Assembly (NCBI GenBank): GCA_018692315.1
Contig: JABHKC010000234.1
Coordinates: forward strand, 1-34,587
Reading direction: 5' to 3'
From: Bacteroidota bacterium
GTDB lineage: Bacteria > Bacteroidota > Bacteroidia > Bacteroidales > JABHKC01
Length of the DNA stretch: 34,587 nt
This document shows, one piece after another, positions 12,992 to 25,382 of this stretch. Both the position numbers and the translations under genes were made by a program. The first letter of the stretch is position 1, and every line of letters begins with the position of its first letter. The notes beneath the pieces were generated by a model that had not been told where the DNA came from, did not search any database, and saw only the letters and a list, made by a program, of their open reading frames with translations.

Positions 12992-15900
12992 CTACATATT
13001 TCGTCGATATTGTCCACCAACCTGAAATAATGCTTGGGTAATTTGTCCAATTGAACAATATTTTGAAGCTTCCATTAAACTTTCAAAAATATTTTGGTTT
13101 GACACAGCAGCTTCTTGTAGATTTTTAATTTGAGTTTTAGATTCTTTTTTATAGGTTTTATGCAGTTCATCAAGCATTTCTATTTGATATTCTTTTTCGG
13201 TTTCTGTGGCACGAATTACCTCACCCGGAATAATTGTAGGGGATCCTTTCGACGAAAGAAAAGTATTCACACCCATAATCGGAAGTTTTCCCGTATGTTT
13301 CAGAGTTTCATAATATAGCGATTCTTCTTGAATTTTGCTACGTTGGTACATAGTTTCCATTGCACCAAGTACTCCTCCTCGTTCGGTAATTCTGTCAAAT
13401 TCCATTAATACGGCTTCTTCAACTAAGTCAGTAAGTTCTTCGATTATGAACGAGCCCTGTAGTGGATTTTGATTTTTTGCCAAACCTAATTCGTGATTAA
13501 TTATCATTTGGATTGCCATAGCTCGCCGAACTGATTCTTCGGTTGGAGTTGTGATTGCTTCATCGTAGGCATTGGTATGCAGAGAGTTACAATTGTCGTA
13601 AATTGCATATAAGGCTTGCAAAGTTGTCCTGATATCATTAAAATCTATTTCCTGGGCATGTAGCGAGCGACCAGAAGTTTGAATATGATATTTTAGTTTT
13701 TGCGATCGGCTGTTTGCATTATACTTCAATTTCATTGCTTTAGACCAAATTAATCTTGCCACTCTGCCCAAGACTGAATATTCTGGATCGACACCGTTTG
13801 AGAAAAAGAACGATAGATTTGGAGCAAATTTGTTGATATCCATTCCGCGTGAAACGTAGTATTCTACGTATGTAAATCCATTTGTAAGAGTAAATGCAAG
13901 TTGCGAAATCGGATTTGCACCAGCTTCAGCAATATGATAGCCAGAAATTGATACTGAATAAAAGTTTCTTACATTATTATTAATAAAATATTCTTGCACA
14001 TCTCCCATTAATTTCAATGAAAAATCTGTAGAATAAATGCAAGTATTTTGAGCCTGATCTTCCTTCAAAATGTCGGCTTGAACTGTTCCTCGAACACGAC
14101 AAATTGTTTCAGCTTTAATTTTGCTGTATATTTCTGAAGGCAAAACCATATCACCTGTTACGCCAAGTAGAAACAATCCAATACCATCGTTTCCGTCCGG
14201 AATTTCTCCCTGATATTTTGGACGAATAGTTCCTTTTTCTTTATAAATATTTTCAATCTTCTTATCGATTTCGTCTGTTAGACCATTTTTACGAATATAA
14301 ATTTCGCATTGCTGATCTATTGCTGCATTCATAAAATATCCAACCATGGTAGGAGCAGGCCCGTTTATTGTCATAGAGACCGAAGTTTTAGGAGCTGCAA
14401 GATTGAAACCTGAATATAGTTTTTTTGCATCATCAAGGCAAGAAATTGATACACCGGAATTTCCTATTTTCCCATAAATATCAGGTCTTTTATGCGGATC
14501 TTCTCCATATAAAGTTACAGAATCGAAAGCTGTTGAAAGTCGTGCTGCAGGCAAACCTTTCGATACGTAGTGAAATCTGCGGTTTGTACGTTCAGGTCCT
14601 CCTTCGCCAGCAAACATTCTGGTAGGATCTTCACCTTCTCTTTTGAAAGGAAAAACTCCTGCAGCAAATGGAAATTCGCCAGGTACATTTTCTTTTAAGT
14701 TCCATTTCAGAATGTCGCCCCAGGCTTTATATTTTGGCAATGAAATTTTTGGAATTTGAAGATGAGATAAGGATTCGGTGTGTGTTTCAATTTTTAGTTC
14801 ATTATCTCTGACCTTAAAAATAAATTCTTTTTGCTTGTATTGTTGGGTTTTGTCTTCCCAATTTTCGATTATTTTTTTATTGTGTCCATCAAGATTCAGA
14901 CTTGTTTCTTCATATTTTTTGTTAAGCTCTGAAATCAAATTTTGTTTCGGTTCTTCATCTATTGAAAGAATCTGCTTTGACATTTGTAAGCTATAGAGTT
15001 TCTGTGCAATATTTGATTGATCTTCAACCCAATTGTTATAATTTCGAGCAGTTTCAGAAATTTCTGAAAGATATCTTGTTCGATGAGGAGGAATAATAAA
15101 TAGTTTCTCGGACATTTCATTCGATGGAGTCATCGATGATTTCAAGTCGATATTCGATTTTTCTTTAACTTTCTCAACTAAAGCTTTGTAGAGCTGATTA
15201 ACACCGGGATCGTTAAATTGAGATGCAATAGTTCCATAGACAGGCATTTCTTCGAAATCTACTTCGAACAACATCTGATTTCGTTGAAATTGCTTTTTTA
15301 CATCTCTGAGAGCATCGAGCCCACCTCGTTTGTCGAATTTGTTAAGTGCAATAATATCGGCAAAATCAAGCATGTCAATTTTTTCTAATTGAGTAGCTGC
15401 GCCATATTCCGGAGTCATAACATACATAGACAAATCGCTATGGTCAACTATTTCTGTGTCGGACTGGCCAATTCCGGAAGTTTCTAAAATAATCGTATCA
15501 AAACCAGCAGCTTTAACAATATTCACAGCATCGCGAACATATTTCGATAGGGCAAGATTCGATTGCCGTGTTGCAAGAGAACGCATATATACTCGTTCAT
15601 TGTTAATAGAATTCATTCTGATTCTATCTCCAAGCAAGGCTCCACCGGTTTTTCTTTTCGAGGGATCTACTGAAATAATTGCAATGGTTTTTTCAGGCAA
15701 GTCGCTCAAATATCTTCTTACTAACTCATCAATTAATGAGGATTTTCCTGAGCCGCCTGTTCCTGTTATGCCTATTACCGGAGTTTTTTTGTTTTCCGCA
15801 AGTTCATAAATCTCTGAAAGTAGTTTTGAAACTTCTTTAGGATAATTTTCGGCACTCGATATCAAACGGGAAATAGAATTTATATCTTTTTTAAGAATAC

Positions 15901-16369
15901 TTTCAAGTTTTATGCTTTGGTTTTTTCCTGTTGGGAAATCAGATTTTTCGAGCACATCGTTTATCATTCCCTGCAATCCCATTTTTCTGCCATCGTCGGG
16001 CGAGTAGATTCGTTCAATTCCGTAATTGTGCAATTGCTCCATTTCGTCTGGTAGAATTACACCGCCACCTCCACCAAATATTTTGATGTGTTCAATGCCT
16101 TTTTCAACCAATAAGTCTTGCATGTATTGAAAAAACTCAATATGTCCGCCTTGATATGAGGTAATTGCAATTGCCTGAACATCTTCTTGAGCAGCACAAT
16201 CTACAATTTCTTTTACTGACCGGTTGTGTCCAAGATGAATTACTTCAGCACCTGTTGATTGAATTACTCTTCGCATAACATTTATTGAGGCATCGTGTCC
16301 ATCGAATAGAGCTGCAGCAGTAACAATTCTAATATGATTTTTTGGTTGATATCTTTCTTTAGCAAGCAT
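12992..16369 (-). CDS. icmF: Fused isobutyryl-CoA mutase IcmF (B12-dependent, with G-protein chaperone)
   Basis: IcmF interconverts isobutyryl-CoA and n-butyryl-CoA (some homologues also isovaleryl/pivalyl-CoA) with adenosylcobalamin. The 1125 residues carry the diagnostic order. First comes a cobalamin-binding domain (about 12-145) with [10 protein letters not shown]25 being the lower axial ligand. Next is a MeaI-type GTPase chaperone (about 195-410) with Walker [10 protein letters not shown] (203-211) and NKFD (343-346). A linker follows, then the mutase TIM barrel from about 545. In the substrate loop [20 protein letters not shown], phenylalanines at 573/575 occupy the place where methylmalonyl-CoA mutase has tyrosine, favouring a non-carboxylated acyl-CoA. 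Full length and apparently intact. The cytoplasmic role would be branched- or straight-chain short acyl-CoA metabolism. Confidence 0.92.
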
Positions 16370-16533: not shown

Positions 16534-17391
16534 TTAGCCAAACCCTCCAGTTCTGTAAACGTCTGAACGAGGATTTACGCACATTACTGAAATCTTCATC
16601 GAATTGGAAATTACATATTGTTCAGTTGTTCCCACAATATAATCTTGAAGTCCAATATTTCGTGTTGTCATTATAAGAATTAGATTTGTATTTATCGTAT
16701 GTGCAAATTTGATAATTTCTTCAGCAAAATTTCCTTTCCCTTCGGCAGTGGTGATTTCGTATAATACATTTCTTTCCTTAAGGAATTTTTTCGCAAAATT
16801 TAGGTTTGCAGTAGTTCTTTTTTTCAAAAGTTCATCGGTAACATTAGGTGTGAAAATCTGTATTTTAGATTTAAAACTTTTTGCCATATAGTTTGCCCAA
16901 AGTAGTTTTTCTTTATTTTCTGTCCTAAAATCAACAGGAAAGACAATGTCGTTGTTGTCTCTATATTCGTATGGAGCTTGCACTACCATATATGGCACTT
17001 TTGAACCAACGATAACTTTTAAAGCTCTACTGCCTGTAATTTTTTGCATTCCGGTCATTCCGTGAGTTCCCATTATGACCATATTTGCATTCTCTTCTTC
17101 GGCAATTTTGTTTATGGTGTTAAAAATATTCCCTGATTGAACAATCACTTTGGGCTTTATTTTATGTTCACTAATAATCTTTGCAGAAACTTCATTGAGC
17201 TTTTGAGTAGCATTTTCAATTTCTTTTCTTTTTCTCGAGCTGCTTGAAAATACACTACCTTCGTCGATTATATGAACAATGGCAATATCATTTTCTAAAA
17301 TTCGTGAAATTGGTATGGCATGACTTAAAGCATATTCAGCAATTTGCGAAAAATCCCAAGGGACTACTATTGTGTCTTTCTTATGGTGCAT
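16534..17391 (-). CDS. Universal stress protein (UspA family), tandem Usp domains
   Basis: A 285-residue cytoplasmic protein of two Usp domains in tandem. Domain 1 (about 1-145) starts KKDTIVVPWDFSQIAEYAL and has the nucleotide-binding signature GTHGMTGMQKITGSRAL (GxxG then G-S). Domain 2 (about 150-285) is degenerate: the equivalent loop reads TTRNIGLQDYIVGTTEQYV. So probably only the first half binds ATP. I chose the ATG at 17391. A longer frame begins at a TTG (17418), but a TAATTTTG promoter box overlaps that TTG. The gene is divergent from the sensor cyclase, and both starts lie within about 90 bp. Confidence 0.85.
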   Translation of the reverse strand: MHHKKDTIVVPWDFSQIAEYALSHAIPISRILENDIAIVHIIDEGSVFSSSSRKRKEIENATQKLNEVSAKIISEHKIKPKVIVQSGNIFNTINKIAEEENANMVIMGTHGMTGMQKITGSRALKVIVGSKVPYMVVQAPYEYRDNNDIVFPVDFRTENKEKLLWANYMAKSFKSKIQIFTPNVTDELLKKRTTANLNFAKKFLKERNVLYEITTAEGKGNFAEEIIKFAHTINTNLILIMTTRNIGLQDYIVGTTEQYVISNSMKISVMCVNPRSDVYRTGGFG

Positions 17392-17415
17392 AACAACATT
17401 TTTACAATTAAAATT

Positions 17416-17423
17416 CAAAATTA
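17416..17423 (-). promoter_or_regulatory. -7 element of the uspA-like gene
   Basis: On the minus strand this is TAATTTTG, a full TAnnTTTG match, 25 nt before the ATG at 17391. No clear -33 TTG is present. It overlaps the alternative TTG codon at 17418, which argues against that upstream start. Confidence 0.35.
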
Positions 17424-17437
17424 AATAATAATTTATT

Positions 17438-17445
17438 TAATTTTG
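17438..17445 (+). promoter_or_regulatory. -7 element of the sensor adenylate cyclase gene
   Basis: TAATTTTG, 33 nt before the ATG at 17479 and back-to-back with the uspA -7 box on the other strand (17416-17423). No convincing -33 box is visible. It overlaps an alternative in-frame TTG at 17443, supporting the ATG. Confidence 0.35.
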
Positions 17446-17478
17446 AAAAAACATTTAATATTACAAAAAAAAATAATA

Positions 17479-20400
17479 ATGACAAAAACAATTTCCAAAA
17501 ATAGTCATTTATATAAACATTCCCTAATTATAATTATTATATTTTTGAGTATAAATTCTTGGTGTCAAACATATTATTCAGGAATACCTTATGTTAGAAA
17601 TTTTCTTCCGAAAGAATATGGCTACGAAAGTCAGAATTTTTCAATCTTACAGAACGAGCAAGGTGTTATGTATTTCGGCAATTTGAATGGAATTCTTGAA
17701 TACAATGGAACTAGTTGGAATATCATAAAAGTTGAAGGTTGGCCATTTTTAGATATCGACGAAAAAGGAACTATTTATGTAGCTTCGAACGATGAATTTG
17801 GTTTTCTTGCTGAAGATTGGAATGGCAAAACAAAGTTTACTTCAATTATTGAAAATCGAAATGATATTAGCTTTTCTGAAATATCAGATATTTATACAAT
17901 TGATGATGAGGTTCTTTTGAAGGATAATAATAAAATTTATTCATGGAATTCCAAAGAATTTCGCATAGTTAAAGAGACGGTTTATGATTCATTAGAGTTC
18001 AACAGAAATATTTCGATTCATAAAATTTATGACAAAGTATATATTCATTTATCTGATAGTGGATTATACAAATATGAAAATAGTAAACTGAGTTTGGTCG
18101 AAAATGGATCAATTTTCAAAAATAAAACAATTATCGATATTCTTCCATACGAGGAGAATCTTCTTGTATTCACAAAAGAAGATGGCTTTTTATTATACGA
18201 TTTTCAAAATATCAAGCCAATTTTTGCTGCAATAAATAATACCATAAAAAAGCTAAAATTTGTTACCGGAATAATGCTGTCGAACAATAATTATGCAATT
18301 GGCACCCGTTTAGGCGGAGTAGTTTTTCTCGATAGTCAAGGACATTTATTGAATATTCTAAATCAGGAAACCGGAATCAATGACGATCATGTTTATGATT
18401 TATATGTAGATACAGAAAATAGCCTTTGGGCTTGTTTAGGTAATGGAATTTGTAGAATTGAATATCCTTCGGCATTTTCGTATTATAACAAGAATCTGGG
18501 ATTGAAAGCAAGTGTTTCAGCAATTTCAGAATACAAAGGAAAGATGTATATAGGTACAAATAATGGTGTTTATTACATTAAAGAAGAATCTATTTTGAGT
18601 GGAAATATTTTTGAAAAAATAGGAATAATTAATGAAAAGTGTCATAAATTGCTCATTTTTAATGACAGTTTATATGCTTTCACCGAGCAAGGAATTTATA
18701 ATCTTGTAAATAATATTCCTGAAATACTTTATCCTATCGAGACAATTTCCTCTATTCAATCAAAACGAAATACTTCAGTATATTACTTAGTAGGAGTTTC
18801 AGGGCTTTTTGCTATGAAATATGAAAACAAGAAGTGGATTAGTCTGGGAAAATTGCAAAATCTGGATAAAAAAATAATTACGATTGCAGAAACTGCTGAT
18901 GGTTTAGTTTGGTTAGGAACAAATTATTCGGGATTGTATCGCATTAATTTCAGTAAAGGATTTGATAGAAATGCCGATATTCAGCAAATTAGAGAAGGAG
19001 AAAGCGGACTGCCAGAACAGTTTCGTTGGGTAGATGTGTATTCTACTAATAATGGGATTCTGTTTTCCACTTCAAAAGGAATTTATAGATACGATGAGGA
19101 AAACTATATATTTTATTCAGATACATTATTAGGAATTGATTTTTCAAATCATGACAGTTGGGTTTTTCCGATAATTGAAGACAATTATAATAATTTATGG
19201 TATAGCTCCGGGAAAAAAGACGAATTTGCAAAACAAACTACTCTTGCATTGTTTAACGGTAAAAATAAAAAATACACATTAGAAACTCAGCCTTTTATTC
19301 GATACAGCGATGTAACAGTTGAAGCAATTTACTATAAAGATAGCATTGTATGGTTTGGTGGTGACGATGGGCTTATCAGATTCAATTATAAAGAATTTTC
19401 TAAAAACGAGAACAATTTTACTTGTTTAATTTCAGAAGTTCATAATAATGATAATACCCTAAATTCATATTCTTCAAACTATAAAATTTCTGTTGGCATC
19501 GAACAGTTGCCAAACGATAGTTTAATCCCAAAACTTGATTATAAGCTTAGTAGTATTAGCTTTAAGTTCTCTACACCAGCTTATAAAAGTGAAAACTCTT
19601 TTTTATATCAGTACTATCTTGAGAACTATGACAAACAATGGTCCGATTGGTATAGGACAAAGAATAAAGAGTATTCTTATCTTCCTTCCGGAGAATATAT
19701 TTTTCATGTAAGATCGAAAGATTTGTATGGGAATTTCAGCAACGAAGCAAAATATGTTTTTAAGGTTAAAACTCCATTGTTTCTCACGAAAGTGGCATTT
19801 GTAATCTACGGAATAATAATAATATCCTTTATTCTAATGACAATAAAATGGAGATCGTACAATTTTGCTTTGGAGAAAAGCAAATTAGAACAAATAATTA
19901 TTAATCGTACCGAAGAATTACTTTCCGAAAAAGAAAAATCTGAAGAATTGATAATGAACATGTTACCAAAACAAATTGCCGACGAATTAAAATTAAGTGG
20001 AAAAGCAACTACAAAAAGATACAAACAGGCTACAGTTCTTTTTTCTGATATCGAAGGATTTACAGAAATTACAGAAAAAATGGAACCAAGAGAACTGATA
20101 GACGAGCTCGACAAGTTTTTTTACTATTTCGATAGCCTTGTTGAAAAACATAATATTGAAAAAATCAAAACCATTGGAGACGCATATATGTGTGCCGGCG
20201 GATTGCCTGTAAAGAATATAACCAATCCGGTTGAAGTGATTCTTGCAGCTTTAAATATTCAACAATATTTTTCTCAACTTAAATCGGAATCGAAAACACA
20301 CTTACACAAAGTATGGGATTTGAGAATAGGAATTCATACTGGCCCTGTAATTGCTGGCGTAATCGGGCACAAAAAACTTTCATACGATATTTGGGGCGAT

Positions 20401-21231
20401 ACAGTTAATACGGCAAGTCGTCTTGAATCTTCAGGCGAAACCGGTGAAATAAACATTTCAGGTACTACATACGAATTAGTTAAAGATTATTTTATTTGCG
20501 AATATCGTGGGAAATTGCCGGCAAAACATAAAGGAAATATCGACATGTATTTTGTGAAAGGAATAGTTCCTAATTTATCGATAGATAATTTGAAACTAAA
20601 ACCAAATAATGAATTTAATATTAAACTTGCCCATTTGAGAATTGAAGATTTGAAGGAAAAAATTATTCAGAAATTGGAAAAGGAATTGCCTGAAAAATTA
20701 TACTATCACAATGTTCAACATACAATTGATGTTTACACTCAAGTTGAAATAATTGCTAAAGCCGAAAATGTTTCGAACGAAGAATTGCTGCTGCTAAAAA
20801 CCGCAGCCCTACTTCACGATACAGGATTTACAATTAGTTACAACAACCACGAATTATTTGGTATCAGAATTGCCAACGAAATGCTGCCAAAATACTTTTA
20901 TTCACAAGACCAAATTGATAAAATTAATGATCTGATACTATCAACACGATTCCCGCCCAAACCAACCAACAAAATAGAAGAGATAATGTGTGATGCAGAC
21001 CTTGATTATCTTGGTAGAACGGATTTCATTCCAATTTCAAGAAATTTGTTTATGGAATTGTACGAAAAGAAAATTATAAAATCTATTGACGATTGGAATA
21101 ATACTCAAGTAAAATTTATTAAAAATCATCAATATTTTACTGAAACTGCAAAGAAAAACAGAGGTGTAAACAAATCCATTCAGCTCGATAATTTGACTCA
21201 GATGAAATTTCTAACATCTCTTTTTACATAA
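17479..21231 (+). CDS. Sensor adenylate cyclase: beta-propeller, Y_Y_Y, TM, class III cyclase, HD domain
   Basis: This 1250-residue membrane sensor has a signal peptide (hydrophobic about 15-28). A periplasmic two-component-regulator propeller spans about 40-690 (blades with phrases such as VWLGTNYSGLYRI and VWFGGDDGLIRF). A Y_Y_Y domain follows at about 710-767, then one TM helix (771-792) and a short coiled coil. The class III cyclase domain is at about 850-1030. Metal aspartates are D857 (FSDIEGFT) and D901 (TIGDAYM). K897 and D970 (SYDIWGD) are the adenine-selecting pair, and N977/R981 stabilise the transition state, so cAMP is the predicted product. The C-terminal region (about 1065-1200) is an HD domain: H1077, HD at 1113-1114 and D1172/D1174. 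The start is ATG 17479; a TTG at 17443 lies on a promoter box. A YgiQ-type gene follows after 26 nt. Confidence 0.88.
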   Translation: MTKTISKNSHLYKHSLIIIIIFLSINSWCQTYYSGIPYVRNFLPKEYGYESQNFSILQNEQGVMYFGNLNGILEYNGTSWNIIKVEGWPFLDIDEKGTIYVASNDEFGFLAEDWNGKTKFTSIIENRNDISFSEISDIYTIDDEVLLKDNNKIYSWNSKEFRIVKETVYDSLEFNRNISIHKIYDKVYIHLSDSGLYKYENSKLSLVENGSIFKNKTIIDILPYEENLLVFTKEDGFLLYDFQNIKPIFAAINNTIKKLKFVTGIMLSNNNYAIGTRLGGVVFLDSQGHLLNILNQETGINDDHVYDLYVDTENSLWACLGNGICRIEYPSAFSYYNKNLGLKASVSAISEYKGKMYIGTNNGVYYIKEESILSGNIFEKIGIINEKCHKLLIFNDSLYAFTEQGIYNLVNNIPEILYPIETISSIQSKRNTSVYYLVGVSGLFAMKYENKKWISLGKLQNLDKKIITIAETADGLVWLGTNYSGLYRINFSKGFDRNADIQQIREGESGLPEQFRWVDVYSTNNGILFSTSKGIYRYDEENYIFYSDTLLGIDFSNHDSWVFPIIEDNYNNLWYSSGKKDEFAKQTTLALFNGKNKKYTLETQPFIRYSDVTVEAIYYKDSIVWFGGDDGLIRFNYKEFSKNENNFTCLISEVHNNDNTLNSYSSNYKISVGIEQLPNDSLIPKLDYKLSSISFKFSTPAYKSENSFLYQYYLENYDKQWSDWYRTKNKEYSYLPSGEYIFHVRSKDLYGNFSNEAKYVFKVKTPLFLTKVAFVIYGIIIISFILMTIKWRSYNFALEKSKLEQIIINRTEELLSEKEKSEELIMNMLPKQIADELKLSGKATTKRYKQATVLFSDIEGFTEITEKMEPRELIDELDKFFYYFDSLVEKHNIEKIKTIGDAYMCAGGLPVKNITNPVEVILAALNIQQYFSQLKSESKTHLHKVWDLRIGIHTGPVIAGVIGHKKLSYDIWGDTVNTASRLESSGETGEINISGTTYELVKDYFICEYRGKLPAKHKGNIDMYFVKGIVPNLSIDNLKLKPNNEFNIKLAHLRIEDLKEKIIQKLEKELPEKLYYHNVQHTIDVYTQVEIIAKAENVSNEELLLLKTAALLHDTGFTISYNNHELFGIRIANEMLPKYFYSQDQIDKINDLILSTRFPPKPTNKIEEIMCDADLDYLGRTDFIPISRNLFMELYEKKIIKSIDDWNNTQVKFIKNHQYFTETAKKNRGVNKSIQLDNLTQMKFLTSLFT

Positions 21232-24491: not shown

Positions 24492-25382
24492 TTAAGCTTC
24501 TAATTGATTTATTTCTTTTTCTGATAGACCAGTTGCTTTTCTAATAATATTGATTTCCACACCAATATTTAGCATTTTTTTTGCAATTTCAATTTGTTCT
24601 CTTTTTCTTCCTTCTTCTCTTCCTTCCTCTCTTCCTTCCTCTCTTCCTTCTTCTCTTGCAGTATCTAAGGAGTTTTTAATATCTCTATAATACTTTAAAC
24701 TGTCTTCGTAATCTAAATATTCTTCATGTGTAAATTTTGCAATTTCGGCTATTTGGAATAATTGAAAAAATATTTTTTCTTTTAGTTTTTCAGGGATTCT
24801 GTCAAGTTTGTGAAGATTTTTAATAACATATAGCCACTTATCGAATCTGGTTTCTAATTCTTCTACAGATTTTTTAAACTTTGGCATTTCTAAATAGATG
24901 AAAGTCAATTTATCATAAAAAACTACTTTTGTTTCTTGCTCTGTAAGTTTTACATCATATCTGTATTTTTCCGGCTGATTCTCATCTTCATCGAAAACAA
25001 AATCAAGAATTGCAATTGTATAGACTTTTTCTAATTTGAAATCCCATCCGCTACCTTTTACAGCTTGCTCTTGAATAGGAAAAGTAGAATAATACAATGT
25101 CCTATCCTTAAAGAATTTCTGTTTTGTTTTTTGTAATTCAACAATAAATTTCTCCCCTCTTTCATTAGTGCAATATAGATCAAAAACTGCTTTTCTGTTT
25201 AATTCAGTGGCACCCAAATTCTCATTTTTGAGATAAGTTAGGGATGTGATTTTTCCTTGCTCTTCTTTTAATAATTCGTTTAAAAAATCGAGCAACAATT
25301 CTTTATTGATTTCTTCGCCAAAAAGCCTTTTAAAACCATAATCAGTAAAAGGATTAATATATTTCTCTCTAAATTCGTTCAT
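24492..25382 (-). CDS. Rpn-type PD-(D/E)XK nuclease (recombination-promoting nuclease/transposase family)
   Basis: A 296-residue protein of the PD-(D/E)XK nuclease family transposase group (Rpn/YhgA-like). The N-terminal segment YINPFTDYGFKRLFGEE (about 8-24) is diagnostic. The catalytic core is AVFDLYCTNERGEKFIVELQK, with D68 and the E82-x-Q84 variant of ExK. After the nuclease domain a helical region leads to four EEGR units (residues about 242-257) and a C-terminal helix-turn-helix-like end (GLSEKEINQLEA). Relatives promote RecA-independent recombination or act as phage defence; some are decaying mobile genes. No terminal repeats or partner transposase are visible here. A -7 promoter box lies just upstream. 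Confidence 0.85.
   Translation of the reverse strand: MNEFREKYINPFTDYGFKRLFGEEINKELLLDFLNELLKEEQGKITSLTYLKNENLGATELNRKAVFDLYCTNERGEKFIVELQKTKQKFFKDRTLYYSTFPIQEQAVKGSGWDFKLEKVYTIAILDFVFDEDENQPEKYRYDVKLTEQETKVVFYDKLTFIYLEMPKFKKSVEELETRFDKWLYVIKNLHKLDRIPEKLKEKIFFQLFQIAEIAKFTHEEYLDYEDSLKYYRDIKNSLDTAREEGREEGREEGREEGRKREQIEIAKKMLNIGVEINIIRKATGLSEKEINQLEA
24612..24659. repeat. Four 12-bp tandem repeats inside the Rpn nuclease gene
   Basis: Four consecutive 12-mers (plus strand TTCYTCTCTTSC) encode EEGR four times on the minus strand. The unit is a multiple of three, so copy-number change alters the length of the charged linker but never the frame. Confidence 0.8.

Follow-up and report, generated by a model that had tools for sequence, protein, structure and literature searches.

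The window analysed here, a whole stretch of 34,587 bases, is one entire contig (JABHKC010000234.1) of a draft genome of the Bacteroidales (4.98 Mb, 99.6% complete). It carries a gene whose product joins a periplasmic sensor, a class III adenylate cyclase domain and an HD domain. Judging from its sequence, we give somewhat better than an even chance to the reading that this one protein both makes cyclic AMP (cAMP) and hydrolyses it, as a cAMP rheostat. An earlier note on this DNA had described a cyclase and an HD domain in one transmembrane sensor; the open reading frame, the two domains and the residues were all present as described. The features of the gene are as follows.

17479..21231, + strand: sensor-cyclase-HD gene, open reading frame with an ATG at 17479 and a stop codon ending at 21231 (1250 aa)
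17479..17568, + strand: probable signal peptide, aa 1-30, a hydrophobic run judged by eye
17626..19458, + strand: periplasmic beta-propeller region, about aa 50-660 (Pfam Reg_prop, limits by eye)
19582..19767, + strand: Y_Y_Y domain, aa 702-763 (Pfam)
19780..19845, + strand: transmembrane helix, about aa 768-789 (hydropathy, limits by eye)
20011..20562, + strand: class III adenylate cyclase domain, aa 845-1028 (Pfam, PDB matches, residue check)
20632..21228, + strand: HD domain, class I phosphodiesterase-like, aa 1052-1250 (Pfam HD, alignment, model; H1081, H1113, D1114, D1172; Q1210)

By Pfam, the protein runs from a two-component-type propeller (Reg_prop) through Y_Y_Y and a class III cyclase to the HD domain, and one transmembrane helix separates Y_Y_Y from the cyclase. 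A hydropathy scan placed the most hydrophobic 19-residue stretch ahead of the cyclase at aa 768-786, and inspection by eye revealed a probable coiled coil after the helix. The full propeller-Y_Y_Y-cyclase-HD order is kept in five relatives (L003, L004, L005, L007, L042), and the fusion is therefore neither a chance event nor an assembly join. The remark that such a front is more usual for histidine kinases was checked on five near relatives of the sensor half, none of which ends in a kinase. These five propeller/Y_Y_Y proteins lacking a cyclase (L170-L174) carry at their C-terminus a SpoIIE phosphatase (three proteins) or a LuxR-type GerE domain (two proteins), so that the sensor half is shuffled among outputs.

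The cyclase domain matched Guanylate_cyc (PF00211) at aa 845-1028 with an E value of 1.2e-53 (181.9 bits versus a cut-off of 21.9), and D857, D901, K897, D970, N977 and R981 were all present at these positions. We take these six residues to be the set of a self-sufficient adenylate cyclase, D857 and D901 binding metal, K897 and D970 specifying adenine, and N977 and R981 serving the transition state. The closest PDB matches of the domain are adenylate cyclases. The adenylate cyclase predicted earlier from K897 and D970 is thus strongly backed by the Pfam score, the six residues and the PDB matches, and the domain is almost certainly active as such. It is the one class III cyclase found in the genome. 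PADLOC PycC models also matched it (best E 1.1e-16), which may reflect shared cyclase ancestry only.

The HD domain matched PF01966 at aa 1080-1174 (E 1.4e-5, 25.8 bits versus a cut-off of 22) and was placed in the HD phosphohydrolase superfamily. The earlier note had called H1077, H1113, D1114, D1172 and D1174 intact. All five letters are correct, but among 27 aligned relatives D1174 varies and H1077 is nearly rather than strictly invariant, and H1081 had been omitted. Since H1081, H1113, D1114 and D1172 are invariant in the 27 relatives, we assign these four as the metal ligands of a predicted site that is intact.

Recurrence of the cyclase-HD pairing and decay of its sites

Outside the window, HD loci of 100 bits or more were counted in 59 further genomes of the same order, all from different families (n = 51). 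A first contig-level profile scan gave three loci only, and the counts rest on a wider genome search. At 33 of the 51 loci, the HD domain lies in the same chain as a cyclase, or in a contig-cut piece of such a chain, with a degenerate or cut HD domain at 4 of the 33. At six further loci (G029:C10, G012:C165, G027:C98, G026:C15, G054:C65 and G045:C278), it is encoded by a separate gene adjoining a cyclase gene. The cyclase-HD fusion is a recurrent module in Bacteroidota.

Decay of the two active sites was followed in 32 cyclase-HD proteins, leaving out L006, L009, L010, L011, L015, L031 and L043-L047, which were contig-cut or had one domain. In the tree, membrane-anchored and cytosolic clades stood cleanly apart (support 99/95); the calls were made by eye and checked by hydropathy, for which L013 was low (1.46) and L024 high (1.79, with an uncertain start). 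The six cyclase residues were intact in 11 of 12 membrane forms versus 6 of 20 cytosolic forms, whereas the four HD ligands were intact in 9 of 12 membrane forms versus 20 of 20 cytosolic forms. The persistence of either domain where the other has decayed suggests that each is a true enzyme by itself.

The same counts bear on a different explanation, according to which the HD domain has lost catalysis and instead controls the cyclase through a bound nucleotide, be it cAMP or a different one. Cyclic di-GMP enzymes are regulated in a comparable way by degenerate EAL or GGDEF partners. The loss of ligands in three membrane forms whose cyclase is still intact agrees with it, but their retention in the window protein and in every cytosolic form would be unexpected if only binding mattered, and we consider this explanation quite improbable.

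In most of the tabulated cytosolic cyclase-HD proteins (L019, L022, L024 and L027 among them), a lysine stands in place of W972, and the first metal aspartate is missing from several of them. There are hints that the cyclase domain of such cytosolic forms may be a nucleotide sensor.

Likeness of the HD domain to class I phosphodiesterases

The HD motifs YHNxxHTxDV, HD, IxAT, CDADL and QxxF run in the order found in class I phosphodiesterases. In profile-profile alignments, made with three uncurated class I core sequences, YHNxxH, HD, IxAT and CDADL aligned with their phosphodiesterase counterparts, whereas QVxF did so only in global mode. It is likewise in the global alignment only that Q1210, a glutamine in 25 of the 27 relatives, and F1213 fall on the glutamine/Phe-clamp motif of phosphodiesterases, whose glutamine binds the purine.

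The local profile probability against class I phosphodiesterases was 80 for the whole HD family and 82, 88 and 93 for three random subsets of six sequences. Control HD groups, which we named ourselves and obtained by splitting by type an initial mixed set that scored 19 locally, ranged from 0.3 to 5: 5 for the YedJ-like group (six sequences), 4 for the COG4339-like group (three sequences) and less than 1 for two others. Smaller subsets of the HD family gave 38 (one sequence) and 89 (three sequences), versus 0.8 and 4 for size-matched controls. In global mode, the probability went from 13 to 96 across subsets of the family versus less than 0.1 in the split controls. Among the bacterial HD families sampled, this one thus comes closest to the class I cyclic-nucleotide phosphodiesterases of eukaryotes.

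A predicted model of the HD domain alone was good (mean pLDDT 88.3), whereas an AF2 model of the whole cyclase-HD part was poor outside the HD domain (mean pLDDT 65.5) and was not used. Superposition of the HD model on PDE10A (4dff) gave a Z score of 16.9, with 2.6 angstrom over 189 of 199 residues. The values were 17.4, with 3.5 angstrom over 161 residues, for 2pq7, and 16.7, with 3.1 angstrom over 178 residues, for YpgQ with ADP.

Across the phylum, the HD profile matched 162 of 296 genomes at an E value of 0.001 or better, many of the matches being weak, and the comparison was made on the best 29 loci besides the window rather than on all matches. A glutamine at the Q1210 position was present at 17 of the 29 and absent at 12. 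A class III cyclase was fused or within 6 kb at 11 of the 17 glutamine-type loci versus 2 of the 12 glutamine-free ones (P 0.02, the groups being defined by the residue itself); with short flanks the contrast was 8/17 versus 0/12. Among the glutamine-type loci, the cyclase is fused in L065 and L073. Cyclases of other types are paired with the HD domain at L060, L065, L069, L073 and L079: L060 is preceded by two consecutive cyclase frames, and the open frame of L069 abuts a cyclase frame. Next to L067 lies a cyclase gene in convergent orientation; L070 has none within 6 kb. The one relative found by a viral scan with the HD profile, L125 from IMG/VR, is a GAF-PAS-cyclase-HD protein, and plasmids gave two weak matches. 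At L064 and L069, each near a class III cyclase gene, the HD domain is fused to a membrane protein of the YitT type that carries DUF2179 (by Pfam in L064, by eye in L069).

Several of the 12 glutamine-free HD domains bear at their C-terminus PycTM, the membrane effector domain of Pycsar (confirmed by Pfam in L080, L081, L085 and L088, none of which has a cyclase within 6 kb). In the HD tree, one branch with support 91/83 sets the PycTM-fused copies opposite all cyclase-fused or cyclase-adjacent ones. These fusions, together with the PycC matches of the cyclase, would fit a reading in which the product of the cyclase, which the HD domain then removes, is not cAMP but either cyclic GMP or, as in Pycsar, a pyrimidine cyclic nucleotide. 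It is nonetheless very improbable, given the K897/D970 pair, which we take to be adenine-type, and the adenylate cyclases that head the PDB matches. In addition, PycTM was not found in the genome of the window (a TIR effector was not searched for), and on this and the adenine-type residues the locus was not classed as Pycsar.

That genome has one HD domain of this family. No CpdA was found over the cut-off (best 15.2 bits versus 225), nor was PDEase_II, a weak negative since two control genomes matched it but none over the cut-off. A search with PDEase_I (PF00233) returned nothing, which is uninformative, as none of 14 control genomes matched either. Ten proteins of the cyclic-nucleotide-binding CRP/FNR type (L032-L041) are encoded.

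Several results weigh against the HD domain being a cAMP phosphodiesterase. The Z scores of 2pq7, PDE10A and YpgQ are tied, so that the fold of the class I catalytic core, although present, is not decisive alone. An HD hydrolase whose function is unknown, 2pq7, is the top solved match both by sequence (E 2.6e-8) and by Z score, and by profile YedJ (3.4e-5), Cas10 (0.0032) and 2hek (0.0037) all rank above PDE9A, the top class I match by sequence, which comes next with YpgQ at about 0.005. The domain scored 17.0 bits with PDEase_I versus a cut-off of 24.8 and falls outside that Pfam family, which is listed at E values up to 1 for 16 of the 27 relatives (best E 0.0016). The sequence at 1113-1117 is HDTGF, lacking the second histidine of HDxxH, which we take to be the class I motif. 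Because this histidine and about a third of the class I core length are missing, the domain was not filed as a class I member, though it may work like one. At 12 of the 51 HD loci of the order, no cyclase was present within the surrounding 3.5-12.5 kb, and 6 of the 12 adjoin a stress protein. The canonical cAMP cassette, which we take to be that of E. coli CRP, was seen by eye in none of the ten CRP/FNR-like proteins, and no classical cAMP receptor was found in the genome. Finally, excerpts of PMC8115329 and PMC5159850 report that the plant CAPE phosphodiesterases lack the glutamine, and that the Marchantia one hydrolyses and prefers cAMP. Since the glutamine-free HD group also scored 80 locally (6 globally), the Q1210-type glutamine is no strict marker. 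A glutamine switch of phosphodiesterases is described in excerpts of PMC8177086, in which YpgQ is a nucleoside triphosphate (NTP) pyrophosphatase.

The HD domain might instead be an HD phosphohydrolase of the ordinary kind with a different nucleotide as its substrate, for instance a YpgQ-like NTP pyrophosphatase, and serve beside the cyclase as a helper or a signal-linked clean-up enzyme. The leading match to 2pq7, the match to YpgQ (E 0.0049) with its ADP-bound structure, and the HD copies without a nearby cyclase speak for this. Against it stand a profile likeness to class I phosphodiesterases that far exceeds what the sampled ordinary HD families show, and the recurring association with class III cyclases of more than one type; we hold it to be unlikely. 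That the HD domain hydrolyses cAMP is supported by its class I-like motif order, fold and profile score, by its recurrent fusion with, or proximity to, class III cyclases, and by the way in which the cyclase and HD sites decay independently. Weak support comes from the genome, where neither a CpdA nor a class II phosphodiesterase was recognised. The HD domain is thus likely a cAMP phosphodiesterase. Of the earlier proposal that one protein makes and removes a cyclic nucleotide, the first half is upheld by the cyclase sequence; the second is supported by the lines of evidence just named, though the PDEase_I test failed.

The stress-protein neighbour and other genes of the window

Divergently from the sensor gene, and separated from it by a short intergenic region, lies a gene for a universal stress protein.

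16534..17391, - strand: tandem universal stress protein, two Usp domains (Pfam), divergent neighbour
17392..17478, no strand: 87-bp intergenic region common to the stress-protein and sensor genes

This neighbour, of which the earlier note says nothing, is conserved. In the sample of the order, a stress-protein match lies at most 5 kb from the HD domain at 20 of the 51 loci, versus 0.52 expected with random placement, and a match of at least 139 bits was present in 33 of 37 genomes with the HD domain versus 1 of 22 without; both tests treat the genomes as independent, which phylogenetically they are not, though each is from another family. In propeller forms the gene mostly lies upstream in divergent orientation, and it also adjoins stand-alone HD genes such as L046, L090, L091 and L092. 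At L094 (G026:C15), cyclase, HD and stress-protein genes lie in a row on one strand, the stress-protein frame being broken in two. No such match was found around the 29 phylum loci (flanks up to 6 kb), and the partner may therefore be limited to the order.

From its position, the stress protein is the best-placed candidate effector or modulator of the signal. According to excerpts of PMC11107214, mycobacterial Rv1636 of the Usp superfamily binds cAMP via Gly10 and Gly113, Gly10 being required for full binding. The top PDB match of the window stress protein is the ATP-binding MJ0577. The proline of its IVVPWDF motif presumably occupies the position of Gly10, the two being equated by position rather than by a computed alignment, and this proline weakens the idea that the protein binds cAMP as Rv1636 does. 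Its second half has a weak PADLOC CARF match (E 1.8e-4).

Two back-to-back TAnnTTTG boxes lie in the intergenic region, at 17416-17423 (- strand) and 17438-17445 (+ strand). As a promoter-like signal this motif was rejected, its density being that of chance (66 in the window versus 57 expected). Co-transcription with the downstream radical SAM gene, which we take to be YgiQ-like, was also dropped, as no match to that gene was found in the flanks of the relatives scanned. Elsewhere in the window, positions 12992-16369 (- strand) encode a single protein of 1125 aa that combines B12-binding, MeaB and mutase domains (Pfam), presumably an IcmF-like fused mutase, and positions 24495-25382 (- strand) a PD-(D/E)XK family transposase (PF12784).

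A putative cAMP circuit and known systems

The proposed cAMP rheostat would work as follows. A periplasmic ligand would bind the propeller/Y_Y_Y front, and the signal would cross the membrane via the single helix and then the coiled coil. In a homodimer, which we infer, the ligand would alter how the coiled coil and the two cyclase domains pair, and cAMP made from ATP would rise. The C-terminal HD domain, a miniature relative of class I phosphodiesterases, would hydrolyse cAMP to AMP. This hydrolysis could run all the time and keep the signal sharp and local, or the sensor could control it in the opposite sense to synthesis and would then set both the rise and the fall of cAMP. The stress protein might act as effector or modulator of this signal.

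A broader picture can be drawn, in which the HD family represents a bacterial branch, so far undescribed, of the class I cyclic-nucleotide phosphodiesterases; its glutamine copies, next to adenylate cyclases, would clear purine cyclic nucleotides and its glutamine-free copies, several of them PycTM-fused, pyrimidine ones, and the stress protein would be the cAMP effector of these Bacteroidales, which may lack a CRP-type receptor. As a whole it is speculative and rather unlikely to hold.

If the cAMP rheostat is real, bacteria would have an HD-type cAMP phosphodiesterase, whereas excerpts of PMC8115329 put the phosphodiesterases of bacteria in class III. A prokaryotic relative would be at hand for the class I phosphodiesterases, among which the human enzymes are drug targets. 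There would also be a cAMP circuit of sensor, cyclase, hydrolase and stress protein in Bacteroidota, a phylum of which four genomes had no adenylate cyclases according to excerpts of a 2005 census (PMC1183210).

Parts of this arrangement have counterparts elsewhere. CpdA, a class III bacterial cAMP phosphodiesterase, has the role proposed for the HD domain but is a stand-alone enzyme, presumably of the metallophosphoesterase fold, with none over the cut-off in the genome of the window. GGDEF-EAL proteins likewise carry synthase and hydrolase of one messenger on one chain, one site often being degenerate in a paralogue, but differ in messenger (cyclic di-GMP) and in enzyme folds. Mycobacterial Rv1636/MSMEG_3811 belongs to the Usp family, like the window stress protein, and is a possible cAMP effector in excerpts of PMC11107214.

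No paper on a bacterial cyclase-HD fusion was found in the open-access literature searched. Streptophytes are already known to have a protein that links a cyclase with a class I phosphodiesterase. The closest known protein is plant CAPE. As described in excerpts of PMC5159850 and PMC8115329, CAPE of Marchantia and other streptophytes combines, as the window protein does, a class III cyclase and an HD-superfamily phosphodiesterase in one membrane protein; both of its domains were assayed, and the phosphodiesterase, which hydrolyses cAMP, was placed near PDE9, PDE9A being also the top class I match of the HD family of the window. CAPE differs in being eukaryotic, with an N-terminal phosphodiesterase that is a true class I domain and with no propeller sensor, whereas the window protein is bacterial, has a shorter HD domain that fails the class I model, and carries a propeller sensor.

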